Source: a virus. From it: 64,000 bases of DNA. The notes beneath the pieces are model-generated. The model saw only the letters and a list, made by a program, of their open reading frames with translations. It was not told the origin of the DNA and ran no database searches. Every line of letters begins with the position of its first letter. Positions within the stretch are counted from its first letter, which is position 1. The position numbers and the translations under genes are program-made. The DNA lies in the IMG/VR virus record IMGVR_UViG_3300043219_000566, positions 124,001-188,000 of that record, one strand, 5' to 3'. Positions 3,894 through 37,635 of the stretch are shown one piece after another.

Positions 3894-4541
3894 CTAAATG
3901 TCCGTTCGCGTAACCAGCCGTTTCAGGAACGGGCTAGCCGACCAGACAGACCAGGCATCGACGTACGTGTAAGCAACCGTCACGGGCACCACGAACTTCT
4001 CCGAGGATTCTTCGACCTTGGATAGCGCGCCGATCTCCGCGACACGAAATCGGTTGAAGCCGAACTCGGTCTGAATCGCTTGGGCGTACTGAATTAAACG
4101 AATCCATACTTCGGTACTCAGCAATTCGACCTCGGCCGGGTTCGTCGCGATCGCAAAGATCGTGTGGCTTCCTACCACTGCGATCTGTGCAACAGCCTCG
4201 TGGTCCGCCGGAATCCGGTCCGCGTCTATCCCGGCTACAAGCGCCTGCCCATCGGCCAGGGCCAGTTGTCGAGGCCGTAGCGCGTTGCGCTTGACCACGA
4301 GGGCCGGGCGTGCTTCGCTGCCTGCTGTCAACCAGCGCCACACCGGCACGATTAGAATTTTACTTGTGCGCGGATCATCGTCCCAAATATAGCCCTGTAA
4401 TCGCGGGTCCTGGATTCCGCGAGTCGTCGAAAAATGGCGTGTCAACAAGCGTAGAACGACGCCTGTCAAGATGTGCGGCCGCAGCCCAGTCGAACACAGG
4501 CTGCTGACTTCGACATCAAGATTGTACGGCTCGTTGGCCAT
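3894..4541 (-). CDS. Unknown neck/tail-terminator region protein
   Basis: A 215-residue soluble protein (MANEPYNLDVEVSS) just upstream of the sheath gene. The C-terminal half ends in a probable beta strand (KFVVPVTVAYTYVDAWSVW). Position between the connector genes and the sheath, and the size, suggest a tail-completion or head-tail joining protein, but no family motif was recognised. Its ATG overlaps the stop of the 78-residue gene before it, so the two are probably translationally coupled. Confidence 0.7.
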   Translation of the reverse strand: MANEPYNLDVEVSSLCSTGLRPHILTGVVLRLLTRHFSTTRGIQDPRLQGYIWDDDPRTSKILIVPVWRWLTAGSEARPALVVKRNALRPRQLALADGQALVAGIDADRIPADHEAVAQIAVVGSHTIFAIATNPAEVELLSTEVWIRLIQYAQAIQTEFGFNRFRVAEIGALSKVEESSEKFVVPVTVAYTYVDAWSVWSASPFLKRLVTRTDI

Positions 4542-4789: not shown

Positions 4790-5647
4790 CTATGACGAGC
4801 TGCTGCTGGCATCGCCGCTGGATTCCAGCGGAATGTCGTACTCGATCGCGTTTGGCTCGATCATCCGGATCTCAACCGCCCACACGAGCGGAGCGCCGCG
4901 CAGCGCTACTAGCTCGCGCTTCCGTTCAATCGACCAGCGCTCACCAGTCTCAAGATTCGCCCACACGTCCTTGGCTGTCAAAAACGGGCAAGCGACCGCG
5001 CGCACCGTCTGCATCTGATCGTTGACAACCCCGATGTTTTCCTTTCGCTCCGCGCGCACGGAGAGCCGGTCCTCCCCCAGGTAAAGCACACTGGGACTGT
5101 GGTAGCCGCCGACAAACCCGGTGCCGTAACACGTGGTGCAGTGCGAATCGGTGGGCATATCAGTGTTGTAGTCGGCACACGCGGTGCAAATCTCACCCCA
5201 CTGCTTGCGCCCCAAGTAGATTCCGCGCGTGCCGCTGTAGCGCGCTAGCAGCAGGTACTCGCGCCGAACGACTTCACGGGCGACCAGGTAGTCGTGGCGG
5301 TTCCAGTTCCCCATCACCAGGTGCGGCGCGCTGTAGAAATCTCCCGAAGGCGTAGTGACTCGCACCCGGTAGACGCTGTGCGGCAACTTGCTGAAGCGCC
5401 GTTGCTCTGAGTCCGTCAGCGTGTTTTCGGAAGTCGGTCCGGCGATTTCCTCGAAGTCAGCGTCGGGGTGCTCGGCCCACTCCAGATAGAAAGTGTACGG
5501 ACCCGCTACAACGAAGCGCCGCGAGTCCAGCCAGAAAGTGACCACCGAGCCACCGCGCGTGTGCGGCATGACAACGACGCGATCGAACACACCGTTGTGC
5601 TCGATGATCGGCAGCGGGTTACGGGTTATACCGTGTTCAAATGCCAT
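4790..5647 (-). CDS. Connector-region virion protein with zinc-finger motif and poly-Ser tail
   Basis: A 285-residue protein. Residues 154-173 hold two CxxC pairs (C154/C157 and C170/C173, the second followed by YGTG), which should bind one zinc ion. The C-terminus ends in five serines, part of a poly-serine trend across neighbouring genes. It has no signal or membrane segment. Its start overlaps the stop of a small upstream gene (5637-5924). Position between capsid and sheath genes suggests a head-tail connector or neck component; that role is inference. Confidence 0.75.
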   Translation of the reverse strand: MAFEHGITRNPLPIIEHNGVFDRVVVMPHTRGGSVVTFWLDSRRFVVAGPYTFYLEWAEHPDADFEEIAGPTSENTLTDSEQRRFSKLPHSVYRVRVTTPSGDFYSAPHLVMGNWNRHDYLVAREVVRREYLLLARYSGTRGIYLGRKQWGEICTACADYNTDMPTDSHCTTCYGTGFVGGYHSPSVLYLGEDRLSVRAERKENIGVVNDQMQTVRAVACPFLTAKDVWANLETGERWSIERKRELVALRGAPLVWAVEIRMIEPNAIEYDIPLESSGDASSSSS

Positions 5648-5924
5648 CGTTATCAGGATCGGTCCAAGCCTGTTTGACCAAAGTGCGCCCTAGCTCGAAA
5701 GCAAAACTGTGCCCTCCCGATTTGACCACTGTCTGGATCTTGCGCGCGAACTTGCGGTCCTTGTCCTTCTCCTCTTCGGACAGTTCGTCGTACGGTACCC
5801 ACAACTCCCGCCAGCGCTCGCGCCAAACAGGCTTGACCCGCCGCTGGATCTGCTTCGTCCACTCTGTCCAGGCGTCATGGACCTGCTCGGAAATGCGCTC
5901 CAGCAGTGGGCCTTTCTTTGCCAT
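5637..5924 (-). CDS. Small basic protein with C-terminal FELGRxLxK motif
   Basis: A 95-residue protein starting MAKKGPLLERIS. I prefer the ATG at 5924, which has CGAGGA seven bases upstream, to an earlier possible start at 5978 inside the previous gene. It is rich in Arg, Lys and Trp, with a helix (EEEKDKDRKFARKIQTVV) followed by SFAFELGRTLVKQA. The last motif recurs in other virion-region proteins of this window (20580-20864 and 17719-18270). Function unknown; context suggests a minor virion or assembly protein. Confidence 0.7.
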   Translation of the reverse strand: MAKKGPLLERISEQVHDAWTEWTKQIQRRVKPVWRERWRELWVPYDELSEEEKDKDRKFARKIQTVVKSGGHSFAFELGRTLVKQAWTDPDNDGI

Positions 5925-8993: not shown

Positions 8994-9938
8994 TTACACG
9001 TAGACCGCGCGCCCGATGGCCGCGACGTTCGCGATAGCCGAACCGATGCTCTCGTACGCGAAGAATTCGAGCATGAATGCCTCACGTTTGATGTGCATAG
9101 TTGTGTCCTCTAGGACAAAGAATTTGCCCATGAACTTCGGCTCTGCGAAAAAGTACATCTGGTTATCAACGACCAGACGCGTCTTGATCGTGACGATCCA
9201 GCGGCAGTTGAGCAGGTTCCGCTCGGCAAAGCCCTGCCGCAGAATCTCCTCGGACAGCTCGCCACCGATTTCATCGTAGCCCCACTTCTGCACGTCCTTG
9301 ATGGTGATGTTGTTCACCAGGACAGTCGCGGTCTCCAAGTGCGCCGGAGTACCGGGCAGAATCTTGAGGGCGTCGTTGACGGAATCGCGACTGATGCCAC
9401 CAGCGATAGTCTGGTACTGCGCGACACCGGTCTCCGGCACAGCGACGTCCGGAGTTGCGCCGAGCAGCGTGTTGACCGTAGCGATGGCCTTACCGTCCTC
9501 TTCAGCGAGCATGTCCTTGACAGCGTTGTCGCTGAGGATCTGACGGATGTCCATGTCGTACGTCCGCAGCTCGCCGACGTCCTTCATGAACTTGGGGGTC
9601 ACGATACGGTCGAACATGACACGGAACCGGGGCGCGCGGATGTAGCGCGCGAACGGCTGCGTGGCGTACGGAATCGACGCGGCGGCTGGGGAGTTGGGCT
9701 CCTTGTCCAGCACGATGACCGGCTTGTCCGTGTCGACCTGACGATCAAGATCGTCGTTGGAAACTGGAACAGGCGGAAGAATCTTCCGCCAAAAGCCGTC
9801 TTCACGCATCTTCACGCGGATGAATGCGTTGACGGCGTCCTCGGCGTTCTTCACGATCGCGGGATTAGTGCTGGAAATGTGATCCCAGAACTGCTCGCTC
9901 GTGATCCGCGAGGTCGGGTCAGTCGTCATGCCAGGCAT
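8994..9938 (-). CDS. Major capsid protein (HK97-like)
   Basis: A 314-residue protein (MPGMTTDPTSRITSE) preceded by a strong SD (GAGGTGCAATA then ATG). The layout fits an HK97-fold capsid subunit: an N-terminal helix (VKNAEDAVNAFIRVKMREDGFWRKI), a long spine region, a probable P-domain with RTYDMDIRQILSDNAVKDML and a C-terminal beta/A-domain (YFFAEPKFMGKFFVLEDTT). It is followed by connector genes and preceded by a possible decoration protein, probable scaffold and protease, the standard head-gene order. No long N-terminal scaffold-like extension is seen. Confidence 0.85.
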   Translation of the reverse strand: MPGMTTDPTSRITSEQFWDHISSTNPAIVKNAEDAVNAFIRVKMREDGFWRKILPPVPVSNDDLDRQVDTDKPVIVLDKEPNSPAAASIPYATQPFARYIRAPRFRVMFDRIVTPKFMKDVGELRTYDMDIRQILSDNAVKDMLAEEDGKAIATVNTLLGATPDVAVPETGVAQYQTIAGGISRDSVNDALKILPGTPAHLETATVLVNNITIKDVQKWGYDEIGGELSEEILRQGFAERNLLNCRWIVTIKTRLVVDNQMYFFAEPKFMGKFFVLEDTTMHIKREAFMLEFFAYESIGSAIANVAAIGRAVYV

Positions 9939-10970: not shown

Positions 10971-12254
10971 TTACATAGCCGCTGCAGGAGCCAACTCCGG
11001 CGCGGCTCCTTCTTCAGGCGGGACACCCATCTCAGGCGCGCCCAGCTCAGGTGCGCCCATCATTGCTTCCTCTCCCCCACCGCCGCCCTGCATCTCGGCG
11101 ATTGCTTCCGCCAAGTCAGCAGGATCGATCTCCGCCAGGATATTGGGGTCAATTCCAGCCTGGACCAGAGCTTGGATGATCTGCTCGATCTCCCCGCCAC
11201 CAGCCCCGGCTGCGGCACCAGCGCCCGGATCGGTAGCGCCCGGTTGCTCGCCTTCTCCGCCAAAAGCCATAGCGTCGGCACCAGCGTCGGCACTACCAAG
11301 ACCACCAGCACCACCGGCGGCCATCTCGGTTTCCATGGCCGTCTTCACGCCGTCGTAAGCGACGGTCGCCTGCGCACGCGCAGTCTTCACGCGCGCTTCC
11401 TTCTCCGCCTCGGTCGCGCCTGCCGCGATGCCCTCGTACATGTCGCCCAGCAAATTGGCGTCAGCACAAGCGTGCTTCGCGAGCGCCGTGACCAGTTCGG
11501 CAGAAGTCTGTTTCCCGCTTGCCAACTTGACCAACTGAGCTACGGCAGTCTCCGCGGCTTGTTTCCCAGCTGCGACGTCGGCGTCGGGCGAAGCTGCTGC
11601 TTCCTTGGTCGCGTCCTCACCTTTGCCCTCGGCAGGCGGTTCCGGCGGAGGATCGGCAGCTGATTCCGCGGAAGCGCCCGGCTCAGGAGGGTCCGCCGTA
11701 GCGGGCTCCGCGGCAGCAGCTTTGCTAGCAGCAGCCTTCTTGGCATCCGGCTTCGGCGGAATGTCGAGCGCCGCGAGCTTGGCGTTATACGCATTGATCC
11801 TGCTGGTCAGCCCAGCAGCTGCCTCTTTGATCGACGCGTACTTGCCGCCAAAGTCCACTTTGGCGGGATGCGTGGTGTCCTTGCCCGATGAATCCTTGCC
11901 CGCCTCGCCACCGATCAGGCCATCGGTCGACGAAGTCTCGTTGGCCGGGTCCTCGCCGGTTGGCTTGGCAGTCGTAAGCGGATTCTCCGAGGCACCATCC
12001 AGCTTGTCTTCTTTGGCAGCGTCCACCGGCTGCCCAGGAACATCGCTTTTCACATCGGCGGTGTTCTCGGCCGAACGCGAGCCCTCGGTCGCCTCCTGCG
12101 TACCGTCATCGACGGACTTCGACGGGTGCGAAGTTCCGCTGTCGCCTTGATTCTGGACGTGTCCTGCGGTGGACGCAGCTTCGGCGGCCTTGTTGGTCGT
12201 GACGGATTCAAGAAAACCGTCAAGCGCCTTCAATAGATTCTGGCCGTTTCTCAT
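10971..12254 (-). CDS. Probable capsid scaffolding protein
   Basis: A 427-residue low-complexity protein, very rich in Ala, Glu, Gly, Pro and Asp. The N-terminal 170 residues are disordered and acidic; residues about 190-330 hold Ala/Lys/Glu helices (ATKEAAASPDADVAAGKQAAE); the C-terminus is Gly/Glu/Pro-rich (GGGGGEEAMMGAPEL). Composition and its place between the prohead protease and the capsid genes match scaffolds removed during maturation. An SD (GAGGAGA) precedes the ATG. The role is inferred. Confidence 0.6.
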   Translation of the reverse strand: MRNGQNLLKALDGFLESVTTNKAAEAASTAGHVQNQGDSGTSHPSKSVDDGTQEATEGSRSAENTADVKSDVPGQPVDAAKEDKLDGASENPLTTAKPTGEDPANETSSTDGLIGGEAGKDSSGKDTTHPAKVDFGGKYASIKEAAAGLTSRINAYNAKLAALDIPPKPDAKKAAASKAAAAEPATADPPEPGASAESAADPPPEPPAEGKGEDATKEAAASPDADVAAGKQAAETAVAQLVKLASGKQTSAELVTALAKHACADANLLGDMYEGIAAGATEAEKEARVKTARAQATVAYDGVKTAMETEMAAGGAGGLGSADAGADAMAFGGEGEQPGATDPGAGAAAGAGGGEIEQIIQALVQAGIDPNILAEIDPADLAEAIAEMQGGGGGEEAMMGAPELGAPEMGVPPEEGAAPELAPAAAM

Positions 12255-12317
12255 TGAACAATCTCCTCGTCAAGTTCTGACGACAACGGCACGAAAAAGT
12301 TTTTACGCGACTTGAAG

Positions 12318-13691
12318 TTAAGCAAGCGCGCTGAGTGCCGTCAAATTTCGCACAAAGTTGGTTTCGCCAGAAGAACGCCCATCTGTCGCCGCACGTGCGA
12401 ACGACACGACGTAGGCCGCGTACTCACCGGCGATAACGTCGGCTTGCGGCGGAACAGCGCCCGCGGACTTTGTCAACTGCGGTTCGCTAATTCCTTCGCA
12501 GGCGGCCTTGACTAGCGTGCGCCGGTGTGCAACCTCCGGCAGCAAACTGTAGTTGTTTCTGATGCCCCGAATCGTCGAGGCAACTTTGTTTGTAATTGGC
12601 CGAGTTGTACCGTCGTACGAACCATTCGCACACACTAGCTCGGTACAACCCGCCCGCGGCGAATTAGCAAATACGTCCCGCAACCCAACGCGGATCTGGT
12701 CATCAGAGACGTCCGCCGGTTTTTCGATGCCAGCCAGCGTCATGAAGCTGTTCAGCGGCAGGCAAATACCAGCGCGGTGCAACGCAGCCCAGAGGGCTCC
12801 ACGGTCCTCGCTGGCCTTCAAAATCGTTGCTACAGGCTCATCCAGCTCATGTAATTTCGCGACTCCGGCCATTTTCTGTAGCGCGCTACCATCCAGCATC
12901 TCAGCCAGCTGGCGCAACACCGCAGCCTTCTGTAACGCATAGGCCGAGCGAGTTACCGGAGCCAAGACATCCACTATGCCCATTAACTCGGCCAGCTCGG
13001 CTCCACCCAGCGTAGCGCCGTCAGCTGCGGCCTTTTCCAGCTTGCGGAAAGTGAACGCCACGCGATCGGCCCCGCGCCAGACTTTCGAGATGTCAAAGAA
13101 GTCCGGATGGTCGTTGATCACGCAGGCGATCTTGCCGTTCTCCATGATGCGACCCATGGCGCTGGCAGCGTGCTTGCAGTACTCCTTCCGGGTGCGCGCC
13201 TGATTGCCGCAGATGTAGCACACGTCGTACGGCACTCGGCAACTCATACTGACCGGAAACTCTCCGCGCTTTTCCAGCTCGTCCAGATCACTCGCGCATC
13301 TGTTGGAATCCAGCCCGACGATCAGCTCGACCCGGCCCATCGGCTCGTTGTAAGCCGCTGCCACTACCCGCCCGTGTGCTTTGGCTGGATCTCGGTTGTC
13401 GTGATTGTGGAAGTAGTGCGCCTTCATGAATGTCGGGTGGTACTTCATGTTGGCAGCCTTGGGGAACCAGTCCCCGTTGCGGTTCGGGCCGATAGTCTCG
13501 CCGTCACCCAACGCCAACAGATGCACCAGTTCCTCGCCTGGACGAGACGAGAGCTTACTGAAATCGAAGACCTGCGCTGCAGCGCGCTTGTGTAACCAGG
13601 CCGCATCGACCACGCCGCGCCCGTGTAACGGCACGATGGACGCTACCGCATCGTCGAATTGGAACGATCCGCTAAGCACAGACTTGATCAT
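12318..13691 (-). CDS. Prohead maturation protease (HK97/S78-like) with zinc-finger-like insertion
   Basis: A 457-residue protein. Residues 93-151 follow the caudoviral prohead protease pattern: a histidine motif (YFHNHDN, H95/H97), a GRV strand, MGRVELIVGLD, and a serine motif (FPVSMSCRV, S148 or S150). Just after the serine lies C158xxC161 with C172 and H174, a likely zinc site not usual in this family. The C-terminal 250 residues are helical and of unknown role, perhaps a scaffold-like delta domain cleaved on maturation. Its ATG overlaps the previous stop (ATGA). It lies immediately upstream of the probable scaffold. Confidence 0.75.
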   Translation of the reverse strand: MIKSVLSGSFQFDDAVASIVPLHGRGVVDAAWLHKRAAAQVFDFSKLSSRPGEELVHLLALGDGETIGPNRNGDWFPKAANMKYHPTFMKAHYFHNHDNRDPAKAHGRVVAAAYNEPMGRVELIVGLDSNRCASDLDELEKRGEFPVSMSCRVPYDVCYICGNQARTRKEYCKHAASAMGRIMENGKIACVINDHPDFFDISKVWRGADRVAFTFRKLEKAAADGATLGGAELAELMGIVDVLAPVTRSAYALQKAAVLRQLAEMLDGSALQKMAGVAKLHELDEPVATILKASEDRGALWAALHRAGICLPLNSFMTLAGIEKPADVSDDQIRVGLRDVFANSPRAGCTELVCANGSYDGTTRPITNKVASTIRGIRNNYSLLPEVAHRRTLVKAACEGISEPQLTKSAGAVPPQADVIAGEYAAYVVSFARAATDGRSSGETNFVRNLTALSALA

Positions 13692-16806: not shown

Positions 16807-17719
16807 GTTTCTTCTCCTGAGACGCGCCCTGCAGACGCCGCAAAACCGCGGGACCTTGCGCAACCGCTGCTGTCATCTCGATATACGCCTGCTCCGATCC
16901 CGCACCGACTGGAGCTATTGAAAATTGTACGGCGTGTACTAAACCTGCAACAAATTCCTGTACAACGTCTCCTCCGAGCCCCATCTCAGTTTCCACGCGC
17001 TGGCGGTCAATTTCGTTCTTGAAAATAGCTACCCACTCTTCGACGATCTCGTGCGCATTCATCGGGTTGATGTCACGCACCCGCATCGCTTCCGTGGCAT
17101 TTCGACGAGCCTGAGATGCCAACAGGTCATCGAACCGACGACGGTCATCGGGCTCCATGATTCCGTCGTCCCACAGAGTGAACAGAAAAATAGACCCCTC
17201 CGCCAAAGCAATGCGCTTCCAGAACGGGTCCGGGTGCATGTCCCGCAACCCGCGCGCCTTGGCGCGCGCCGTAATGTAGGCCTTGACCGCTCCTGCTTTG
17301 TCCAGATGACGGCGCATGTCGAAGAAGCAGGCTTCGTAAGCCAGCACTACCGCGTCCGGCAAATCCAGATAGTTGGCAACTTCGTCCAGCGGCATGCTCG
17401 CTACGATCAGCGCTTCGAGATGGTAGCGAGGACCCCGCATCTCGGCGCTGTGTAACTGGAACGCCCAATGCAGATCCGGGTACTGATCCTCGACTTCCTC
17501 GCGGTTCTCGATCGTAGACTCGTCCCAGGCATGCAAGAAGCTCGTCAGCAACGTAACCCAGCGATCCTCGGTCGAGCGGAAGCGCCGGACACCGTCGGAC
17601 TTGAGTGCGCGTGCCCGCGTGTAGCGCCAGGCCGGGTCGAGCAGCGAACGGACCTCGCGGTGGCGTCGTCGGACGACGTCGAGATCGCTCTCCATGCGGG
17701 TAGCTAGCGCGGTTGTCAT
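16775..17719 (-). CDS. Unknown helical virion-region protein
   Basis: A 314-residue, strongly helical, charged protein (MTTALATRMESDL). It contains a segment resembling an HTH (MPLDEVANYLDLPDAVVLAYEACFFDMRRHL), so DNA contact or terminase-small-subunit-like activity cannot be excluded, but its place between virion genes makes a structural or packaged role likelier. It begins with a TAATG overlap on the previous stop, so it is co-translated. No family recognised. Confidence 0.6.
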   Translation of the reverse strand: MTTALATRMESDLDVVRRRHREVRSLLDPAWRYTRARALKSDGVRRFRSTEDRWVTLLTSFLHAWDESTIENREEVEDQYPDLHWAFQLHSAEMRGPRYHLEALIVASMPLDEVANYLDLPDAVVLAYEACFFDMRRHLDKAGAVKAYITARAKARGLRDMHPDPFWKRIALAEGSIFLFTLWDDGIMEPDDRRRFDDLLASQARRNATEAMRVRDINPMNAHEIVEEWVAIFKNEIDRQRVETEMGLGGDVVQEFVAGLVHAVQFSIAPVGAGSEQAYIEMTAAVAQGPAVLRRLQGASQEKKHVEVPEPDSS

Positions 17720-18270
17720 TACTTCTGCCCCTGGAGCCGGTTCGTCAATTCGGCCAGAAACTGAGCCTGGTCGTCACCATCAGCCGCCCTTCCCGCACCG
17801 TATGCGCCCCCTACCGCGCCACCTATCGCTCCACCTTGCAGCATCCGCTTGAGCACGTGTAAGAGCCGCTTGCGCTTACCTTCCGGACCAGTCACTGCGC
17901 CAACTGCCCCGCCGCCCAACATTCCGACGCCCGCGCCAACGAGCCCGGACCTGGCCGCAGGATGGCTGAGCATGTCCTGCAATCCCGAGTCCTTAACCAA
18001 GCCCCGCCCCAGCTCGAACGCCGCCGACTTCCGCGCCTGCCGTCGCTTTTTCTTCTTGCTACTACGCGCGGCACATGAACGCTTTTCCTCAGAAAGCTGC
18101 TTGCCGATCCAGTGTCCCAGCCCGCGCATACCCAGCTCATTGAAGAACGTCACCTTCTGCAAATCACCAGAGTTCTCGTGGTAGCGCGCGCCCTTCCGGT
18201 AGATATCCATACCGCCCATGCTCGGCGGCGAGCGCTTCACGACAAGATCCCCAGCGTCGAGACTGCCCAT
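17719..18270 (-). CDS. Glycine-zipper small protein with FELGRxLxK motif
   Basis: A 183-residue protein (MGSLDAGDLVVKR). A basic segment (SSKKKKRRQARK) is followed by SAAFELGRGLVKDSG, a motif shared with other proteins here (5637-5924, 20580-20864). Two glycine zippers follow: SGLVGAGVGMLGGGAVGAV and LQGGAIGGAVGGAYGAG, likely membrane-inserting hairpins. The combination suggests a packaged, membrane-active virion protein, by inference. TAATG coupling to the previous gene. Confidence 0.65.
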   Translation of the reverse strand: MGSLDAGDLVVKRSPPSMGGMDIYRKGARYHENSGDLQKVTFFNELGMRGLGHWIGKQLSEEKRSCAARSSKKKKRRQARKSAAFELGRGLVKDSGLQDMLSHPAARSGLVGAGVGMLGGGAVGAVTGPEGKRKRLLHVLKRMLQGGAIGGAVGGAYGAGRAADGDDQAQFLAELTNRLQGQK

Positions 18271-20579: not shown

Positions 20580-20864
20580 CTAACGATTGGCCGTCTGCCA
20601 CAGTTGCGTCCCGGACTGCGCAAAGACATTTTTCATCTTCGGAGCCATACTTTTCGTGCGCGGTGCCAGCCCGTGCTGCAAACCCTGGCCCAACCCACCG
20701 CTGCCAATCGCGTTGCCTAGTCCTAGGGACATGCCGGACGTGCTCCGTAAAGCAGTGCGCCCGACTGTTCCGAGGGCCTGCCCGAGGACGCCGGACTTGT
20801 CAAATCCGGCCCCTTTCGCCAAGCACCGTCCCAATTCATAAGCGAACGACTCTTCCATAATCAC
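20580..20864 (-). CDS. Small FAYELGRxLxK protein, possibly from a leaderless mRNA
   Basis: A protein of 92-94 residues. The start is either GTG at 20864 or ATG at 20858 (MEESFAYELGRCLAKGAG). No SD is visible, but a promoter-like pair (TTGAGG, 18 bases, TATACT) ends five bases before the GTG, so the mRNA would start at or within a few bases of the initiation codon. The N-terminal FAYELGRCLAK motif recurs in neighbouring virion-region proteins. The rest is Gly-rich and basic (GLGNAIGSGGLGQGLQHGL). Function unknown. Confidence 0.6.
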   Translation of the reverse strand: MIMEESFAYELGRCLAKGAGFDKSGVLGQALGTVGRTALRSTSGMSLGLGNAIGSGGLGQGLQHGLAPRTKSMAPKMKNVFAQSGTQLWQTANR

Positions 20865-20869
20865 GCGTC

Positions 20870-20899
20870 AGTATATCTGTGCTGCTCGCGCACCCTCAA
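20870..20899 (-). promoter_or_regulatory. Sigma70-like promoter upstream of 20580-20864
   Basis: Minus strand: -35 TTGAGG (20899-20894), 18-base spacer, -10 TATACT (20875-20870). The predicted start site near 20863 coincides with the start codon of the next gene. The palindrome GTAGCGCGCTAC (20918-20907) lies seven bases upstream of the -35 box. The same layout is seen at 35776-35824. Confidence 0.5.
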
Positions 20900-20906
20900 A
20901 AATCAC

Positions 20907-20918
20907 GTAGCGCGCTAC
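20907..20918 (-). repeat. Palindrome GTAGCGCGCTAC, copy after beta-prime C-terminal gene
   Basis: A perfect 12-base palindrome two bases after the stop of the beta-prime C-terminal gene, followed on the minus strand by GTGATTTTTG. Further perfect copies are at 12878, 35813, 49258, 50495, 57376 and 61584; near copies occur at 5228, 27531 and the end of the gene at 49123. Confidence 0.75.
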
Positions 20919-20920
20919 GA

Positions 20921-22774
20921 TCAGTAGACGCCCTGGGTCTCCAGCTCGCGCCCGAAAGTCTGCCCGCGCGCCAGCGAATGGCCCCAGTTCTGCCCGTGTA
21001 TCTCGGAAGTTCCCCCGCGTTGCGCCGCGTCCATGAAACCCTTGCCGATGTAAAATCCTTGGAGCCTGCGGAACCAGTCCGGATCGTGCAACGTGGTCTC
21101 CATGGCCCGGACCATGTGCGGCACAAACGGCGGTGGATCGTCGTGAACCGTGACACTGCCGACCTTGTGTTTCCGCATTGTCTTGAGCACGCTTGGCGTC
21201 AGACGCGTCCCGATCGAGTAATGCAACATCGGGCGCTCCAGGTACTTGCCGCGCGCCAGCGGTGGCGTCAGCGTCACGTTCCCGAACCGCGGCTGGTAAT
21301 TACGCGCCAGCTGGTCGTAGGAGATGATGTCGTCCGGCAGCGCTCCCTCTACCCCGTCCGGCTCAACCACGCGGACATGGTTGATGAGACCTCGGGCAAT
21401 GAGTTCGAGATTGCGGCGATTGACACCGATGCCTTGCTCCCGCAAGGTACGGCCCAGCTGCTGAACCAGATAGCGTCGTCCCTCTCCGACGTGTTTGTGC
21501 CGAACCACGTCAGCCGGGTTGGGAATTCCATCAGAAAGAACATCTCCAGCCTCCACCGCATCGCCCACCTTGACGTGCACAGGTAGATCAGGATGAACGT
21601 AGTGGCGCTCGGAATTCACCCAAACGTAACGCCCACCCTGGGGAGCATCTTCGATACGGCTCACCCGACCGTCGATGTCCGCTAGCGCCGCAGCGTTCTG
21701 GAACGACTTGGGTATCTGCACCAACTGATTGATCGCTTTGAAACCCTGAACTCCCGTTTCGCGTGCTGCACCGACCACTCCGGCCGCATGCTTCGCAGAT
21801 AGCTGCGCCTGAGAGATCGGCTCGCTGACAGCTTGAGACGCGGCGAGACCGATGTTATCGCCAATCGGCGACCAGCCCCCGCGCTCGCGGATACCAGCAG
21901 CAAGACGAGGCACCCCACGGCCACCAGCGGCAATAGGGGAATGAACAACAATTTCGTCATGACCGGAACGTATGAGTGCTTTAAGAATCGAGGGGGTGAG
22001 TACCGTCCCGGTAGCGAACTTCCCGTAGCCGCGGGCCAAGACTGCGCCCTCGTTGTCCTCATCGTCGGTCTCCACCGGCATGCCGGTCTCGGGCAACGGG
22101 TCCTCGTCCGTCACGATCAACGGGCTGGTGGCGTTCGAGAGCTGCTTGCCCAAAAACCCGGCGTCGGCCGTAGCCATCTTCAACGACACAATCCCCTTGC
22201 GGGTTCCGTAAGCTCCAGCAAAATACTCTGCCGGGCTCAGCCCCTCGCTGAAGTTGTGCGTAATCGGAATCGGGATAGGCCGGTCCTTGTGGTCCAGGAC
22301 CATCAGATCCGCCCCGCGGAGTGAAGAGAGATTCGCCGGGTTACCGCGCGCCCCGGACTCGATCGCGCGCGAGAAGCTATTGCCCTCCTCGACGCCCTCG
22401 GCATGCGTGCCTGCGCGCATCTCGTCCATGCGACTTGCCAGCAACTCGACGATCTTCTGGTCCTTCTGTTCGTCGCCCAACCGTTGATTCTGCATAATAC
22501 GCTGGAGCTGCGCATTGACCTCGCGCACGATACGCTGCTTCGTTTGACTGGATTTAAGATCGTCGAGAGAGAAGCTAGAACCGGTGCTGTAGGAAACATC
22601 GGCTCCAATCTGGTTCAAGGCATGAACGATGTCTTTGTAGCGCTCAGGATACCGGTCGGCGACCTCGCGCAGCAGTTGCTTCATTCCCTTTTTGTCCAAC
22701 ACACGAGCGTAGTCCTGCAACTCCTGCGGGAGCGCCTCGTTCACGAGCAGTTGTCCCACGGTTACAGTTCGCAT
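20921..22774 (-). CDS. RNA polymerase beta-prime subunit, C-terminal half (split)
   Basis: A 617-residue protein that begins where cellular beta-prime continues after the active-site region (TVTVGQLLVNEALP). In order it shows the GARGN motif (141-145), the bridge-helix region (FSEGLSPAEYFAGAYGTRKG, from 175, then MATADAGFL), a trigger-loop region (IGLAASQAVSEPISQAQLSAK, about 308-328, with H329), and a C-terminal region with RTLREQGIGVNRRNLELIAR matching the conserved clamp-side end. It supplies half of the catalytic centre; the other half is in the 24901-29298 product. It lies among virion genes, so it may be packaged. SD is weak; a strong hairpin sits just upstream. Confidence 0.93.
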   Translation of the reverse strand: MRTVTVGQLLVNEALPQELQDYARVLDKKGMKQLLREVADRYPERYKDIVHALNQIGADVSYSTGSSFSLDDLKSSQTKQRIVREVNAQLQRIMQNQRLGDEQKDQKIVELLASRMDEMRAGTHAEGVEEGNSFSRAIESGARGNPANLSSLRGADLMVLDHKDRPIPIPITHNFSEGLSPAEYFAGAYGTRKGIVSLKMATADAGFLGKQLSNATSPLIVTDEDPLPETGMPVETDDEDNEGAVLARGYGKFATGTVLTPSILKALIRSGHDEIVVHSPIAAGGRGVPRLAAGIRERGGWSPIGDNIGLAASQAVSEPISQAQLSAKHAAGVVGAARETGVQGFKAINQLVQIPKSFQNAAALADIDGRVSRIEDAPQGGRYVWVNSERHYVHPDLPVHVKVGDAVEAGDVLSDGIPNPADVVRHKHVGEGRRYLVQQLGRTLREQGIGVNRRNLELIARGLINHVRVVEPDGVEGALPDDIISYDQLARNYQPRFGNVTLTPPLARGKYLERPMLHYSIGTRLTPSVLKTMRKHKVGSVTVHDDPPPFVPHMVRAMETTLHDPDWFRRLQGFYIGKGFMDAAQRGGTSEIHGQNWGHSLARGQTFGRELETQGVY

Positions 22775-24900: not shown

Positions 24901-27900
24901 CTACCCCATTACTTTCACCCGGTCGCTGGCATTAATTTCGCCCCGACGATAAGCCCTCCGCACGTCGCCAGCACTCTGAAAAACACGCACTTGCTTATCA
25001 CTGGGCTTGCCGGTGGCTTCATAGAGCCCGTGCAAAAACTCCTGCCCCGGCAGATAGTGTACGTCGAAGGAACGCACGTTCAACAAATTGCGGCTAGGCA
25101 TCAACTTGTCAATCGACTCCTGCACCGCCTCGTCGGACACGGGTACGTGAAATTGCTCAGCATCTCCGTCAAAGTCCGCGCCGAAGCCCCCGGTTGTAAT
25201 CGGCGGCACCTGCAGAGTTTTGCCCTTCGTCAATACCGGGTAAGCCGCCATGATCCCGTAACGGTGCAACGTCGGAGCCCGATTGATAATAACCGGGCGA
25301 CGTTCCATCTCTCGCAGCAACGACTCGCGCGCCTTGGGGTCTTCGTCCGCGATCAACTGCGCCGCGCGCATAGCAGGCATGCCCCGCCGGACCAGATCGC
25401 GCATGATAAACGGACGGTAGAGCACCCAGGCTTTCTCTTCAGGCAACCCCACGTGGTCCATGTCGAGCGACGGATTGGGCGTAATCACGGCCCGCCCTAC
25501 CAGATCCGAAGAAGTCCCGATGACCTTTCGCTGAAATGCACTGAACTTGGGCGAGGACCTGAGCCCCAACGAATGCGCCAAAATGCCGCGGACATTTTTC
25601 TCTTGCAATTTGGGCTGAATCGGATCGCTAAAGCCGGTTAGAGACCTGAACGTGTCGTAGAGCGCCAGCCGCTCGTCTCCGACAGAATCAGGACCCAATT
25701 CGTCCGATAAATCCCGCAGGTTGTTGTTAGCGAGCATCAGCTCCTTGTAGAGATAATTCGGGTGCGCAATCGCGGTGCGCGTGGACTGCTTGACAATCGG
25801 GCGGTACTGCGGCGGCAACACCGGTATCTTGGACAGCACCAGCTCAGCAGGCTTGATCCCGGTCTTCTCGAACATCGTCAACGTGCGCAGACGTTTTACT
25901 GCATCGTCACGTTTGCTCTTAGCTCCGCTGCGGATAAGCTGCTTCTGGGTCTCGATCTGCTTGGGAACGTCGATTGCTTCCAGCGCGCGCTTGATCGCCT
26001 GACCACCGGTGCCCCCACCGCCGACTTCGCGCTGACCAGACAGAACTTCACGATACTGCTTGACGGTCAACCCTAGCAATCGCCTGATCGGGTCCTCCAT
26101 GACCGGGTTCGGCAGCGGCTCGTGGAGGTCGATATGGGACCAGCCCGTCCCGCTATGACCTCCAGTCCGCGCCATGTCGAACAGCCCGCCCGGCAGCGGA
26201 TTCATCGTGTCGAAGTTCAACATCTCGGGAGACGTCACCGGACCGCGGGATAGCTGATCGATATCCTTGTCGGTCAGCGCCATGATGTGCACGTAGTTGC
26301 CCGACTTCTTCACGTTGATTCCCGCGGCTTTAAGATCGTCGAGGAACTTCCGGTAGACGAAAGGCACCTCGGGCGTAGGCGGAGGATAGCCCAACCGGAA
26401 AGCTCGCCAGAAGTCATCGTTCCGCTGCCCCCGGATCAGCTTGGCGTCGCGCAACACCTCGGTCGCCCCGGCGCTGAGCAGACTGGTCGTTTCCAAATTC
26501 CCAAGGCGCTTGGCAGACTGCCCCTTCTGCCGACCAGGCACCATGTCGGCCGTGTACCCAGCCTCGTCCCCACGCCCCGACAGCTTCGACTCGGCGGTGT
26601 GATGTAGCTTCATGAAAAACTGGTTGCCGACGAAGACCTTGGGGATCTTGGCGTTGCGCACCGGGTCGTGCAGATCCTCGGTATCGGACATTCCATGCTT
26701 CTTCAGCTCGTGTTGCACGAACTCCAGCATGTTGACGTCGCTGAACCCGGAAACCTTGTAAGGCTGCCCCGTGCGCGCCGCGACCTTGCCGAGCGCCGCC
26801 TCCAGCATGAGCGCCGGATTGGTTCTGGAAATCACCCCGAACGGATGGATCAAAACCTGTAGCGGGTTGCCTTCGGCATCGCGGGGCATCTGATCATCAG
26901 GAACCACACGACTGACAACACCCTTGCTAGCGAAGCGATTGCTCAACTTGTCCCCGACCTGCATGGGATGGTAGCTCTTGACCACGACGTTCACGGTCCG
27001 CGGCCCGCGATGCACGTCGGTTACGACGCCCGAGACATCATGCTCCCACGTGCGCGTCGTGTTCATCCAGCGGTCCTTGGCCAAACGGTGCAGCACGCCC
27101 TGGCCCTTTGGTTGCCGCTTGGTCAACGACAGCACCAACGGATCGTCCTTCTTCACGATAGAGCCCGGTTTGATGACGCCGTTGTCATCGAACTGGTCCA
27201 TGATGACCCGCGGGTACTTGGCTGGGAACTTCGCCAGGAAAGAGCGCTTAGCCACCCGCTCGCCGGGCTCCAGATCCACGTCGTGCTGGTACATGTGCTC
27301 GGACGTTAGCTTCTTCGCCGCGCCCTCGCTGATCACGATCGCGTCCTCGTAGGTCATGCCCTTGAAGGGCAGGTAACCAACGCGCAGATTCTTGCCGATC
27401 GCCAGCGTGCCTTCGTCGTCGGTGAAGTTGCTCTTGGCCAGCAGCTGGCCAGGCTGCACCTGCTGCCCCGGAGAGACCAGCGGAGTCGAATGGACAAATG
27501 ATTTTCTGTTGAAGGGAAAGTTAGTGTACAAATCGTAGCGCGTTACGCCCTTCGGCGTCTGAATCGCGATATGGTCTTTGGCGATCTTCTTCACCACTCC
27601 GGCCGCGCCAGAACGCACCACCCCCATCCGCGATCCGAAATGACGCTCGAACGAATCGTCGCCGTCATCGCCGAGCCGCGCCGTCTGCACCAACGGGGCC
27701 TCGGGCTTCTGCATCGCCAGCGCCTGGGTCAGCATCCGGCTGGTCATCAGCATGCGATGACCCTTGATAGCGGACAAGAACGGTACCAGATGCGCCGGAC
27801 TGGACATCATGTCCTCGTGCGACGGCACCTGGTAGTCCACCTGCTCCGGGTCGACGAACTTCAACCGCCCGCGCACCATGGCCCGCGCCGGGCGTTCCTC

Positions 27901-29298
27901 GTCTCTAGCTTTCTCCACCTCGCCCGGAAACGCGATAACCGAGCGCGCAGCGTCCATCGAAGAAACCAATCGGGTACGCCCGGCCTTGTCGAGCATGGGA
28001 GTATAGAGCTGCCCGTCGTCGCCTTTGACCGTCTTGTAGGCCAGCCTGTTGTCCACCCCTGCTTTGCCGGACTCCGACGTACGAATCGGATCGATGAACC
28101 CCAGATACGACGGTTGCACCGCCCGGCTCTCGTCGGGAATCGCGTCCATCGAAGGAATCCCGCCCGCGCCCATACGCGAGATGCGCTGGAGCTGGTCGTG
28201 AATGTCGATCGGATTAACTTCCTCCAACGGCATGCCGAGCCCAGAGTCCAATAGCGCTGATTGCAGCTGACGCGTTCGCGCGTCCGTATTGACAAGCGGG
28301 TCCAGCGAGCGACGGAACGTAGCGCGCCACAACAGATTGCGCGTCGTGCGCCCCGCGTCCTTGCGCACCCGCTCGGAAATCAGATCCTCGGGACCCATGA
28401 CCGTCTGGTAGGCAATGTTGTCGCGGTCGTCGGTGTCGCCGGTGCCCTGCGAGATCGCAACTAGCTTCTGAGTTGCCTTGAGAATCGCCTCGGGAGTCAC
28501 GTTGGTATAGCGCTCGCCCAGCGTTTCCTGAGTGACTTCGGGGTCCAGCTGCATCTTCGCAAACGTTTCCTGCAGATCCCTCACCTTGTTGACGGGATCG
28601 TCGGGCGAACGCTCGCCGTCCCCCAGCGCCGCCCGCCGCTGGGTGAATTTGGCCCAGGCTTTATCGAGATGCCGGACGTTGTCCTGCAGGGAATTGCTAG
28701 CCAGTAGATCGCGGCCCCAGGCCTTCGATAGCTGCTCGTTGGTCACACCCAACGAACGCAGCAACGTGTAAAGCGGAAATTTCGACTGCCCAACCCGTAC
28801 ATGAAACACGCCGCTCTCCGCGTCCATAAAGACCCGGAAGCCCGGCCCGGAGCCAGGCATGATATTGAAGTGGCTCTCCAGCTCACCAGTCTCTTTCTTG
28901 CGCGTGTAAACGCCGGGCTTGAGGCGCATCTGGTTGGCGAGCGTGTACTCGTTACCTCTGTAGATGAACGTGCCGCGGTCGGAGACGTGCGGAACCATCG
29001 CAACCCGGCTTCGCCGCTCATCGATCACCTGCCCAGTCGCCTTGTCGATCATGCGCCAGGTGCCAGACAGCGAGCGGTGCATCGTCTTTCCGCCGATGAT
29101 CGCGCGCTTCTGCCGCTCCAGCCCGGCGGGCTCAGGCTGATCGTAATCGACATCGCCCAGCTCCACGCGGTACTGCGTGTTCTCGATCGGATAGTGATCC
29201 TGAGATGATTGACGTACGTTAGCGTAGACGCGCTGGCGCAAGGCGCTCACATCGTCGAAAGCCCGAGTCGTTGGTTCCTTGGTTCCAAGCACATCCAC
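24901..29298 (-). CDS. RNA polymerase beta plus beta-prime N-terminal half, fused
   Basis: A 1465-residue protein joining bacterial-type beta and the first half of beta-prime. Beta landmarks in order: RGTFIYRGNEYTLANQMRLK (lobe/protrusion start), a rifampicin-region match (QLQRISRMGAGGIPS then YLGFIDPIRTSESG), LRVGYLPFKGMTYEDAIVIS, GDKLSNRFASKGVVSRVVPD and FFMKLHHTAESKLSGRGD near the beta end. Beta-prime landmarks follow: KIPVLPPQYRPIV, LVGRAVITPNPSLDM, INRAPTLHRYGIMAAYPVL, and the catalytic loop GADFDGDAEQFHVP with the three Asp at 1375, 1377 and 1379. It ends after RRGEINASDRVKVMG, where cellular beta-prime runs on into the part encoded at 20921-22774. Start is GTG with a poor SD, so the exact N-terminus is uncertain. 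No alpha or omega gene is visible. Confidence 0.95.
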   Translation of the reverse strand: MDVLGTKEPTTRAFDDVSALRQRVYANVRQSSQDHYPIENTQYRVELGDVDYDQPEPAGLERQKRAIIGGKTMHRSLSGTWRMIDKATGQVIDERRSRVAMVPHVSDRGTFIYRGNEYTLANQMRLKPGVYTRKKETGELESHFNIMPGSGPGFRVFMDAESGVFHVRVGQSKFPLYTLLRSLGVTNEQLSKAWGRDLLASNSLQDNVRHLDKAWAKFTQRRAALGDGERSPDDPVNKVRDLQETFAKMQLDPEVTQETLGERYTNVTPEAILKATQKLVAISQGTGDTDDRDNIAYQTVMGPEDLISERVRKDAGRTTRNLLWRATFRRSLDPLVNTDARTRQLQSALLDSGLGMPLEEVNPIDIHDQLQRISRMGAGGIPSMDAIPDESRAVQPSYLGFIDPIRTSESGKAGVDNRLAYKTVKGDDGQLYTPMLDKAGRTRLVSSMDAARSVIAFPGEVEKARDEERPARAMVRGRLKFVDPEQVDYQVPSHEDMMSSPAHLVPFLSAIKGHRMLMTSRMLTQALAMQKPEAPLVQTARLGDDGDDSFERHFGSRMGVVRSGAAGVVKKIAKDHIAIQTPKGVTRYDLYTNFPFNRKSFVHSTPLVSPGQQVQPGQLLAKSNFTDDEGTLAIGKNLRVGYLPFKGMTYEDAIVISEGAAKKLTSEHMYQHDVDLEPGERVAKRSFLAKFPAKYPRVIMDQFDDNGVIKPGSIVKKDDPLVLSLTKRQPKGQGVLHRLAKDRWMNTTRTWEHDVSGVVTDVHRGPRTVNVVVKSYHPMQVGDKLSNRFASKGVVSRVVPDDQMPRDAEGNPLQVLIHPFGVISRTNPALMLEAALGKVAARTGQPYKVSGFSDVNMLEFVQHELKKHGMSDTEDLHDPVRNAKIPKVFVGNQFFMKLHHTAESKLSGRGDEAGYTADMVPGRQKGQSAKRLGNLETTSLLSAGATEVLRDAKLIRGQRNDDFWRAFRLGYPPPTPEVPFVYRKFLDDLKAAGINVKKSGNYVHIMALTDKDIDQLSRGPVTSPEMLNFDTMNPLPGGLFDMARTGGHSGTGWSHIDLHEPLPNPVMEDPIRRLLGLTVKQYREVLSGQREVGGGGTGGQAIKRALEAIDVPKQIETQKQLIRSGAKSKRDDAVKRLRTLTMFEKTGIKPAELVLSKIPVLPPQYRPIVKQSTRTAIAHPNYLYKELMLANNNLRDLSDELGPDSVGDERLALYDTFRSLTGFSDPIQPKLQEKNVRGILAHSLGLRSSPKFSAFQRKVIGTSSDLVGRAVITPNPSLDMDHVGLPEEKAWVLYRPFIMRDLVRRGMPAMRAAQLIADEDPKARESLLREMERRPVIINRAPTLHRYGIMAAYPVLTKGKTLQVPPITTGGFGADFDGDAEQFHVPVSDEAVQESIDKLMPSRNLLNVRSFDVHYLPGQEFLHGLYEATGKPSDKQVRVFQSAGDVRRAYRRGEINASDRVKVMG

Positions 29299-31375: not shown

Positions 31376-31780
31376 CTACGGACCAGCCGACGAGCTTTCC
31401 TCAGCAGGCGACGCAGCAGCCGACGAGCTTTCCTCAGCAGGCGACGCAGCAGCCGAGGAGCTTTCCTCAGCAGGCGACGCAGCAGCCGAGGAGCTTTCCT
31501 CAGCAGGCGACGCAGCAGCCGAGGAGCTTTCCTCGTCCGGCGGCACCACGGCGATCGGAGGAAGCCGAGACTCAAACTTCGGCTTCACGCCGCTAGGACC
31601 GCCGCCACGTCCGCCGTAGGTCTCGTGCTGGGCCAAATCGTCCAGCGGAATATCCACCCCCGCACCCGGCCGTCCGCCACGGCGCGTATCCGGCAGAATC
31701 TGCCCGATCGGCGTAGCTTCCTGCTGCTGCCCGGTGCGGTCGCTCACTCGCGGCTTAACATGTTCGTCAGAACTACTCAT
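31376..31780 (-). CDS. Acidic low-complexity protein with 11-residue tandem repeats
   Basis: A 134-residue protein (MSSSDEHVKPRVSD). The C-terminal 55 residues are nearly five copies of AEESSSAAASP, encoded by a 33-base tandem repeat (31385-31538). The N-terminal part is polar and probably disordered. A flexible virion linker or scaffold-like role is possible. The repeat number may vary between related phages. SD (GAGGT) present. Confidence 0.65.
   Translation of the reverse strand: MSSSDEHVKPRVSDRTGQQQEATPIGQILPDTRRGGRPGAGVDIPLDDLAQHETYGGRGGGPSGVKPKFESRLPPIAVVPPDEESSSAAASPAEESSSAAASPAEESSSAAASPAEESSSAAASPAEESSSAGP
31385..31538 (-). repeat. 33-base tandem repeat, about 4.6 copies
   Basis: Direct copies begin at 31385, 31418, 31451, 31484 and 31517 (the last is partial). 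Copies 3-4 are nearly identical; copies 1-2 carry GACGAG or GACGAC in place of GAGGAG. The period is a multiple of three and stays in frame, giving AEESSSAAASP. Confidence 0.9.
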
Positions 31781-33552: not shown

Positions 33553-34107
33553 CTACCTCGGTCTTCCGAAGACCGCCTTGAAGTAGTTAGGAATTCGAGG
33601 GCGCGCGTACTGCGCCGCGTTGTACCCCATCGGCAACATGCCGGGTCCGACAGCGTTCATGTACTGCTGCGCTTGCGGACCTATCCCGGCTATTCTCCGA
33701 CTTCTAGGATCGCCAACCGGAAAGCCGTGAATATTCCTCTCGCCTTGATTCGCGTCCGGCGGCTGACCACCAAACAGTTTTCCGAGTCCCGCCGCGCCCG
33801 CCGCGAAACCAACTGTGGACTTCGGGTACTTGTAGAGCCAGTACGCCGAGCTAAGCGGATTGGGAATTACCCCGGCTACACTGCCACCGAATGCAGCCAA
33901 GTCGGCTTTGCCGCCTCGGAGCATCTTCGGTAGCAGCGGCTCAGGCGTAGCCTTCCCGAACGTCGTCGCGCGCTGCGCCCAGTTCTTAGCAACCGGCGCA
34001 GCCTTTTGCGCTTTAGAAGCCAGCCATGGCAATGCTTTGCTAGCAAAGCGGCCTGCAGACTTGTCCATGGCCAACCGCTCACCAAGTTGGTAAGCGTAGC
34101 TCGGCAT
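33553..34107 (-). CDS. Unknown virion-region protein with N-terminal YAYQLG motif
   Basis: A 184-residue basic protein (MPSYAYQLGERLAMDKSAG). The N-terminal YAYQLGERLA resembles the FAYELGRxLxK motif of 20580-20864 and relatives. A Gly/Ala segment (TVGFAAGAAGLGKLFGG) lies mid-way. The C-terminus is Pro/Tyr/Arg-rich. SD AGAGGT. No family recognised; a packaged protein is suggested by the shared motif and neighbours only. Confidence 0.65.
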   Translation of the reverse strand: MPSYAYQLGERLAMDKSAGRFASKALPWLASKAQKAAPVAKNWAQRATTFGKATPEPLLPKMLRGGKADLAAFGGSVAGVIPNPLSSAYWLYKYPKSTVGFAAGAAGLGKLFGGQPPDANQGERNIHGFPVGDPRSRRIAGIGPQAQQYMNAVGPGMLPMGYNAAQYARPRIPNYFKAVFGRPR

Positions 34108-35775: not shown

Positions 35776-35805
35776 ATTCTACGTCTGCCGCTCGGCAGCT
35801 CCCAA
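35776..35805 (-). promoter_or_regulatory. Sigma70-like promoter upstream of 34816-35769
   Basis: Minus strand: -35 TTGGGA (35805-35800), 18-base spacer, -10 TAGAAT (35781-35776), then CACACC and the ATG at 35769. The predicted start would be at the ATG itself. The palindrome GTAGCGCGCTAC lies seven bases upstream of the -35, the same layout as at 20870-20918. Confidence 0.5.
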
Positions 35806-35812
35806 AAATGCC

Positions 35813-35824
35813 GTAGCGCGCTAC
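35813..35824 (-). repeat. Palindrome GTAGCGCGCTAC at portal gene stop
   Basis: A perfect copy whose TAG is the stop codon of the portal gene. It is followed on the minus strand by GGCATTTTTGG, like the copies at 20907 and 50495. Confidence 0.75.
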
Positions 35825-37635
35825 ATCCCGCCCGGTGCCCCGCCCGGTGCCCCACCCGCCATCTGGGCGATGACCTGGTCCTGACCAACGCTCCGGGCTT
35901 GGCTGCGCATGTTCTGGAGCTTCTGCTTCACCACGGCATGCAGAGTCTCGTCGGTCTGCCGCAACTGGTTGAGCTGGCGTCGTCGCTCACCTTCCGGCAT
36001 CGCCAGCAGCTGCTGAGCCATCTGCTCAGCCTGATCGAGCACATCTCCCGGCTGCATCGCCCCTCCGCCACCGCCGCCGCCCGGCATCCCCGGCGCACCA
36101 CCACCAGCAGCCATCGGTGGCATCCCCTGACGGGCCGCGCTGGTTTCGTTCAACCGTCGCTGCATATCCTGCGCCTGCATCTCTTCCTTCTCGATCTTCT
36201 GCTGCTCCTCGCGCAACATGCGTTGCTCGTCGAAGATGCGCCGGATCTCGTCGCGCACGTCGATCCCAAACGGAGCCAACGCCGTCTGATCCGAGATCTT
36301 GTTCGCAGCCGACAACTGCAACCGGACCAACCGCGCTTCCATGTCGTCAGCGCGAGTGACCGGAGTCATACGCCCACGCGCTCGCTCCCAGTTGAAAACC
36401 ATCGAGAGATTTTCGAGCAGCCAGTTTATCCAGTTGTTGAACCCGGCAACCAGGTGCGGCCACGTTGCCTCGAACAGCCGCAAAGCCGGAGGCATGGCCT
36501 TTAGCTCCAACGAGCCCTTGTAGAGATCTGCCGGGACGCCGCACGAATTAAGCAGCTCGTCCAGCGCCACCGTTATCAGCTCGTGCGGTGCAAGCTGATT
36601 AGCCTCGCCGCCCAGCGCCTGATACTCAATTGGAAAAGGCAAACTGTGCATCGCGAGTGGATCACGCCGATGCTCGGCAATCATGCCGCGCACCCGCGAC
36701 GAGAAATTGCCCAAGTTAGCGTTCAGCAGCGGATCGACTTTGCCCTGCGGACCGCCCGGACGTCCGGGCGTAACTACGCGCCAGGGCACGATGTAGTCCA
36801 TGGCCAGCGCCTCGTTGTAGCGCTTGAGCACCTGGATGTAGAACCCCTGCTTGAAATTCGACAAGGCCCGTGGGATACCCCAGCCGCGGTTGTGCAGCCC
36901 CGCCAGCGTGTCCTCCTTGAGATGGAACACGATGCCGTCGTTGAACCCGAACAACTGATCCTTCTGGATCGCTTCAATGTATTCCCAGGGGGTGTACTGC
37001 AAATAGAACGGCACGCCACGCTGGATCTGACTTTTGAAATCTTGAGGAATACGCCACAAGTAACGGTGGTCGTGGCTAAGCGGATGGAACAAAATCTCCA
37101 TCTGGTGCGGGCTCCAGCGGATGATCCGCAACCGGTCCTGCTCCATCGAGCGGCGGTCCACCACATCGAACTCGCCGTTGCATTTACACTTCGGGCACTG
37201 CCCGTAGAACTTAAAGCCCCGGAACGTATAGAGCATACGCTCGATCGGACGATCCAACTTGCAGCTCTTGCAACGCAGATAGCGTCGGAACGGAACGAAA
37301 ATGCTCGTAAACGAGTTACCGTAGAACAGAAAATCGAGCCCCACCATCCGCAGTTGCGCAGCGACTCGCAGCGTATCGTCCAGAAATTCGTTGTACTGCT
37401 TCTTGATCTCGTCGGCGACGTCCAGGATCTCGACCTTGGTCAGGAAATACGCACACACGCGCTCCAGCGCCATCCGGTACGTACCGTTGTGCGCCCAGAA
37501 CAACTCACACCAGCGGAGCATGCTCCGCAAGTTGCGAGGCGTGTACATCCCGGAGTAGTCGAGGAAAGGGTCGGGAAACCACTGAACCCCGCCGCTGGAC
37601 CCGGACGATGAGTTAGGAACAATGCTATCTGGCAT
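35821..37635 (-). CDS. Portal protein with zinc-finger insertion
   Basis: A 604-residue portal-like protein. The N-terminal and middle parts have the helical/clip/stem layout of large portals (YRMALERVCAYFLTKVEILD; WEYIEAIQKDQLFGF; ALRLFEATWPHLVAGFNNWI), with a long helical barrel-type C-terminus (MLREEQQKIEKEEMQAQDM). Unusually, residues 122-150 hold CxxC...CxxC (C122, C125, C147, C150), a probable structural zinc site. The C-terminal 100 residues are Gly/Pro/Met-rich. Position upstream of the head gene block supports it. The large terminase was not found in the window. Confidence 0.75.
   Translation of the reverse strand: MPDSIVPNSSSGSSGGVQWFPDPFLDYSGMYTPRNLRSMLRWCELFWAHNGTYRMALERVCAYFLTKVEILDVADEIKKQYNEFLDDTLRVAAQLRMVGLDFLFYGNSFTSIFVPFRRYLRCKSCKLDRPIERMLYTFRGFKFYGQCPKCKCNGEFDVVDRRSMEQDRLRIIRWSPHQMEILFHPLSHDHRYLWRIPQDFKSQIQRGVPFYLQYTPWEYIEAIQKDQLFGFNDGIVFHLKEDTLAGLHNRGWGIPRALSNFKQGFYIQVLKRYNEALAMDYIVPWRVVTPGRPGGPQGKVDPLLNANLGNFSSRVRGMIAEHRRDPLAMHSLPFPIEYQALGGEANQLAPHELITVALDELLNSCGVPADLYKGSLELKAMPPALRLFEATWPHLVAGFNNWINWLLENLSMVFNWERARGRMTPVTRADDMEARLVRLQLSAANKISDQTALAPFGIDVRDEIRRIFDEQRMLREEQQKIEKEEMQAQDMQRRLNETSAARQGMPPMAAGGGAPGMPGGGGGGGAMQPGDVLDQAEQMAQQLLAMPEGERRRQLNQLRQTDETLHAVVKQKLQNMRSQARSVGQDQVIAQMAGGAPGGAPGGM

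Follow-up and report, generated by a model that had tools for sequence, protein, structure and literature searches.

The palindrome GTAGCGCGCTAC most probably (roughly 85–90%) represents the genome-wide sites of one dimeric protein that co-evolves with them, and not an operator specific to a promoter. In the sequence, this was seen as an enrichment over the whole genome, a strict dyad, a preference for gene junctions, positions conserved between relatives and a concerted change of letters. A protein would read the palindrome, and this reader is probably phage-encoded since the specificity differs from phage to phage.

A total of 20 exact copies of GTAGCGCGCTAC were found in the 216,501-bp record of the home phage (G000), a jumbo phage, where Markov models of order 1 to 5 expected 0.02–0.13 copies. 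Seven of these were located in the window, a 64,000-nucleotide stretch of this record. The excess of approximately 150-fold or more over the Markov expectation, and the 0 copies found of the reversed-pattern control, left practically no room for chance or a compositional artefact as the explanation. The second commonest palindromic 12-mer of G000 had 2 copies. Six copies of GTAGCGCGCTAC carried one mismatch, and among all copies with at most one mismatch the central CGCG was invariant and positions 4 and 9 formed the most variable pair (three of the six one-mismatch copies). In addition, a C was present at −1 in 28 of the 40 flanks, and the consensus with flanks was CGTAGCGCGCTACG. A search for GTAGCGCGCTAC in viral contigs produced scattered single matches.

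G000 encodes its own RNA polymerase. One gene (24901–29298, minus strand) joins beta to the N-terminal portion of beta', and a separate one (20921–22774, minus strand) encodes the C-terminal portion. Both served in the search for relatives, and 29 contigs were obtained through the polymerase, G001 and G002 included. The beta-beta' protein was 1465 aa in G000, 1813 aa in G001 (L026:9992-15433) and 1911 aa in G002 (L027:9941-15676), possibly due to inteins. The nearest relative was G001, an 85-kb contig collinear with G000 whose RNA polymerase proteins were 71–72% identical. It had no GTAGCGCGCTAC and eight exact copies of GTAACGCGTTAC, a palindrome with 0 copies in G000. Between the two, both half-sites were changed together at homologous places, from GTAG..CTAC to GTAA..TTAC. 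For five of the eight G001 sites, the base-by-base alignment gave a G000 counterpart with differences at positions 4 and 9 only; this counterpart was GTAGCGCGCTAC in three cases and the half-changed GTAACGCGCTAC in two. From the distribution of window identities, approximately 1.6% of 12-mer windows were estimated to differ only at these positions, and in the aligned DNA 14% of 12-base windows kept at least 10 letters. One aligned pair was within the RNA polymerase gene, where the half-switched form GTAGCGCGTTAC (27535–27546) of the beta-beta' gene was replaced by GTAACGCGTTAC at the same codons of G001. The form GTAGCGCGTTGC (4277–4288), with two mismatches, was homologous to the G001 site GTAACGCATTAC. 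The alignment of G001 sites with G000 sites argues against a recent insertion of an element, and the aligned pairs are as expected of sites whose dimeric reader is changing. The sequence-only reading had proposed a dimeric regulator on the palindrome, and a dimeric trans-acting factor was indeed suggested by the perfect dyad and the joint change of the half-sites in G001; its role as an operator of a promoter was not upheld, as described below.

The self-complementarity of the palindrome, and a change in G001 that keeps the pairing, would also be accounted for by an RNA hairpin or terminator, and three copies were followed by ATTTTTG. However, the folds of these three T-run copies were no better than those of shuffled sequences (z = −0.45, 0.21 and 0.53), by which an intrinsic terminator was rejected, and most copies had no T-run. 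Unlike a free hairpin, the copies within a phage showed no variation of pairs, with the central CGCG strict. An RNA element was considered very unlikely.

In three of the phages, the sites were enriched at the borders of genes. In G000, 13 of the 20 copies were intergenic or at most 20 bases from a gene end or start compared to 17% of random places (P = 2.5e-6), and the palindromes of two other relatives described below showed the same preference (10 of 14 sites in G027, P = 6.9e-6; five of six in G013, P = 0.001). Seven of the 20 copies in G000 were inside genes, as were six of the eight in G001, which had two sites at junctions. The genes were called by a home-made caller, whose calls for a further relative, G022, were unreliable. 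The TAG of the palindrome was the stop codon of a gene at eight G000 copies, one of which served two convergent genes; of the 40 GTAG words within palindromes, 9 were real stop codons, versus 38 of 1384 elsewhere (P = 2.7e-6).

Five of the seven exact copies in the window had no promoter and had been missed by the sequence-only reading. The copy at 12878–12889 was inside a 457-aa gene, in which G001 also had a site at a different codon, and the copies at 49258–49269 and 61585–61596 were inside coding sequences as well. The copy at 50495–50506 contained the TAG stop of thyX (50503–51318) and was followed by ATTTTTGG and an SD with ATG, and the copy at 57376–57387 contained the TAG stop of the gene at 57384–58229, directly upstream of the GGAGG-ATG of the gene at 56874–57365. 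Elsewhere in G000, an inverted repeat of TATATATACTGCGC (72385–72456 of the record), possibly a divergent promoter pair, was found directly next to an exact copy.

The remaining two copies in the window were the only ones of the 20 with a plausibly positioned promoter-like pair. At copy 1, direct reading of the minus strand (20918–20856) confirmed the reported layout. The exact palindrome (20907–20918; CGTAGCGCGCTACG with flanks) was located 2 nt past the stop codon of the gene for the C-terminal part of beta' and 7 bases from a promoter on the minus strand (20870–20899) with a −35 box TTGAGG (20899–20894), an 18-bp spacer and a −10 box TATACT (20875–20870). The −10 box was followed by GACGC and then by GTG ATT ATG, with GTG at 20864 and an in-frame ATG, six further, at 20858. 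These two codons are the alternative starts of a 94-aa ORF directly after copy 1 (20580–20864, minus strand), the reality of which is uncertain because it matched no family. Its product and the otherwise different small proteins of 5637–5924, 17719–18270 and 33553–34107 had in common a motif of the type F/Y-A-F/Y-x-L-G-x-x-L-x-K, which may be a signal for sorting or encapsidation. The recurrence of the copy-1 layout at 35776–35824 was also found correct on direct reading (minus strand, 35824–35767). Here, the exact palindrome (35813–35824) held the TAG stop of a 604-aa gene (35821–37635) and was again 7 bases from a minus-strand promoter (35776–35805), with TTGGGA (35805–35800), an 18-bp spacer and TAGAAT (35781–35776), which was followed by the six nucleotides CACACC and the ATG at 35769. 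An SD-like word preceded 178 of the 267 called genes versus approximately 10% of random positions and, as reported, was absent at the starts of both copies.

Both promoters had counterparts in G001. At copy 1, TTGAGG-18-TATACTGACG was kept and the palindrome was absent, and the gene behind the promoter was a different one, with a short ORF followed by a LAGLIDADG-like frame that was recognised by eye (L015, approximately 11900–13090) and replaces or interrupts the gene. At copy 2, GTAACGCGTTAC with a TAA stop was followed by TTGGAA-18-TAGGAT-6-ATG, so that the palindrome, −35 box, 18-bp spacer, −10 box and ATG six bases on were all kept in both phages, with a distance from palindrome to −35 box of 7 in G000 and 4 in G001. 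The conservation of the −35 box, spacer and −10 box at both copies points to real promoters that leave almost no leader, and this part of the proposed near-leaderless promoter was retained. Features of a sigma70-type leaderless promoter (hexamers, a 16–19-bp spacer, a start at approximately +1, no SD and conservation) were found at copy 2 in both phages and at copy 1 with a conserved promoter and a differing downstream gene. The transcripts would thus start at the start codon, a layout that is well supported for copy 2 and less so for copy 1.

The other part of the proposal, in which the palindrome is part of the promoter and serves as the binding site of a protein combining an XRE domain with sigma70 region 4 (51697–52284, minus strand; HTH_3 at residues 16–68 and region 4 at residues 130–181), was not retained. 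It would be favoured by the identical 7-bp gap at the two copies, the conservation of both promoters and the presence of HTH_3 and Sigma70_r4 in the candidate. However, 18 of the 20 copies had no such promoter, and the copy-1 promoter survived in G001 without a palindrome, which indicates that the promoter does not need one. Together with the change of distance at copy 2, the absence of the copy-1 palindrome indicates that the leaderless layouts are independent of a fixed position of the palindrome beside the −35 box. Thus, the reading restricted to promoters was rejected, and an operator of this kind is improbable. HTH_3 was found in G000 and weakly in the relatives G013 and G023, and was not found in G001 (a partial record), G022 or G027. 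The XRE protein was not common to most palindrome-bearing relatives and was therefore rejected as the reader. No relatives of the XRE-sigma4 protein were found apart from matches to the sigma region. The protein exists, but no result links it with the palindrome.

The search for a reader by other means gave no convincing candidate, neither in Pfam scans of most phage proteins nor when the gene content of palindrome-bearing phages was compared with that of the others. The ParB N-terminal domain (PF02195) had no match in G000, G001 and G002, with 11 of 14 controls matched, and a ParB/KorB-type system was rejected on this ground. No tyrosine integrase was found in any palindrome-bearing record searched, so lysogeny and immunity were not indicated. 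Other observations were made on the proteins of these phages. The protein of 8994–9938 is likely the major capsid protein, and two small ORFs at 25102–25483 of the G000 record (L006:9603-9984) had short stretches that resembled it, as if copied fragments. A tandem 33-bp repeat (31394–31525) in the ORF at 31376–31780 (minus strand) encoded repeated ESSSAAASPAE. One small protein of alignment A3 (window, L227, L228, L012 or L231) matched the Tad2-like anti-Thoeris domain in Pfam, and an IS110-type transposase match was present in the phage genome (L225:3371-4495).

The palindrome GTAGCGCGCTAC was absent from the 26 other records scanned, several of which carried a dispersed palindrome of their own. 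G022 (224 kb, 71% G+C) had 25 exact and 10 one-mismatch copies of AAAACCGGTTTT, G027 (62% G+C) had 11 exact copies of AAAAGTACTTTT in 198 kb, G013 had seven exact copies of CCAAGGCCTTGG in 122 kb and G023 had six exact copies of TCTCGCGCGAGA. In addition, G008 and G009 may share AAATCCGGATTT, with two copies each in the part covered. The palindromes of G027 and G022 differed in their centres (GTAC and CCGG, respectively), and for six to seven of nine comparable G027 sites a G022 site was found within 700 bases of homologous DNA. The G000 sites were not clearly at the same places as those of the distant G022, G027 and G013. No enriched palindrome was found in approximately 125 kb of G002, 61 kb of G005 and 53 kb of G017, or in 50-kb portions of Salmonella phage Arash and of Vibrio phage D69. 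Dispersed palindromes were therefore a trait of several relatives and perhaps not of the whole clade. The palindromes of G020 and G010 were rejected as dispersed sites because they formed local clusters. In G020, the ACTTAANNNTTAAGT palindromes (91.7–97.8 kb; L401) were clustered next to several XRE-type genes (94.6–97.0 kb) and formed an operator region that, in contrast to the dispersed sites, is local, and in G010 the CCCCTTATCCACGCACGCGTGGGTGAGAC repeats (13.6–13.8 and 29.0–30.5 kb; L441, L395) were clustered with a spacing of approximately 61 bp.

The phages with differing palindromes covered a wide range of G+C content (41–71%), which would also fit a lineage-specific host protein as the reader, with every phage matched to the host it infects. 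However, the palindromes differed even between G000 and G001, which are fairly close relatives. Among the matches listed for CGTAGCGCGCTACG in bacterial genomes, the copies were spread over many phyla and almost all were one per stretch, a weak argument against a host factor. Reading by a host protein is unlikely, although slightly less so than an operator tied to the promoters.

The spacing of the sites was more even than random in three phages. In G022, the 35 sites with at most one mismatch had a spacing CV of 0.37, and none of 50,000 random sets was as even; the one-mismatch sites filled gaps between the exact ones. The spacing was also evener than random in G027 (P = 0.0004) and G001 (P = 0.003). 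Even spacing and conserved intragenic sites, such as the one in the RNA polymerase gene, would fit sites that organise the genome equally well or better, for which reason this was kept as the main rival of a silencer. A phage protein similar to MatP, Noc or ParB would bind the evenly scattered palindromes and so fold the large genome, segregate it or package it, and gene junctions would be the places where sites disturb coding least. On the other hand, the ParB N-terminal domain was not found as stated above, the exact sites of G000 were not evener than random (P = 0.14; P = 0.025 with one-mismatch sites), and a rapid change of specificity would have no obvious reason. Organising sites are thus possible but doubtful. 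The fuller form is a shade more doubtful, namely that jumbo phages of one clade, with a multisubunit RNA polymerase of their own, possess a system for organising the genome. Its palindromes would be evenly scattered, phage-specific and conserved in position, and the dimeric protein reading them, itself fast-changing, would fold, tether or segregate the viral chromosome.

As the most likely function, a silencer or roadblock acting genome-wide was tentatively favoured, at somewhat less than even odds, because of the analogy with the stoperators of mycobacteriophages L5 and Bxb1. One dimeric and highly sequence-specific protein would bind 20–26 places over the whole phage genome and would stop or dampen transcription at gene boundaries, as proposed for the L5 and Bxb1 repressors, and relatives would come to differ in site specificity in the way that immunity specificities diverge. 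The conserved, near-leaderless promoters of sigma70-like type at copies 1 and 2 would have the dimer just upstream and could be modulated by it. Against a silencer, no reader was found by domain scans or comparison of gene content, the sites within genes are many in G000 and G001, no tyrosine integrase was found in the palindrome-bearing records searched, and the even spacing in G022, G027 and G001 is not required.

If the main reading is true, each giant phage carries, over its whole genome, many copies of a private address label for one protein, and between relatives this label can change at many sites without any shift of the sites themselves. A switch of protein-DNA specificity would be visible as a natural experiment. 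One short DNA duplex would then be a handle for identifying a global regulator or chromosome organiser in phages mostly known from metagenomes. The open-licence papers that were searched contained no description matching these sites.

Known dispersed sites resemble the palindromes in part. The operator of the KorB protein of plasmid RK2 is TTTAGCSGCTAAA. KorB operators are short palindromes, dispersed on the plasmid, through which one protein silences at a distance (PMC11790492), and resemble the sites here in this respect; KorB, however, is a ParB-family protein. The matS sites of Escherichia coli, bound by MatP, are 13 bp, are repeated 23 times and organise DNA (PMC3330122). They are likewise a short site repeated many times on one DNA, but are confined to one chromosome domain whereas the palindromes are spread over the phage genome. 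SPBRE of Bacillus phage SPbeta, which is bound by MrpR and was known from sequence long before its reader (PMC10516654), likewise recurs at several positions in a large phage genome; it is in promoter regions, whereas most sites here were away from promoters. The cluster A mycobacteriophages L5 and Bxb1 have 24 and 34 sites of 13 bp, respectively, which are mostly intergenic and bound by the repressor, and heteroimmune phages have a different consensus (PMC3029335). The palindromes share with these stoperators the many short sites over one phage genome (20 exact in G000, 25 in G022 and 11 in G027) and a site sequence that differs between related phages. However, stoperators are asymmetric, oriented with transcription and found in temperate phages, whereas the sites here are perfect palindromes of 12–18 bp, partly intragenic, in phages that encode a multisubunit RNA polymerase themselves. 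The palindromes were assigned neither to the stoperators nor to KorB-like operators because they lack the asymmetry of the former and the ParB feature of the latter. Overall, copy 1 is one member of a dispersed, phage-specific set that resembles known dispersed repressor sites in its possible action.
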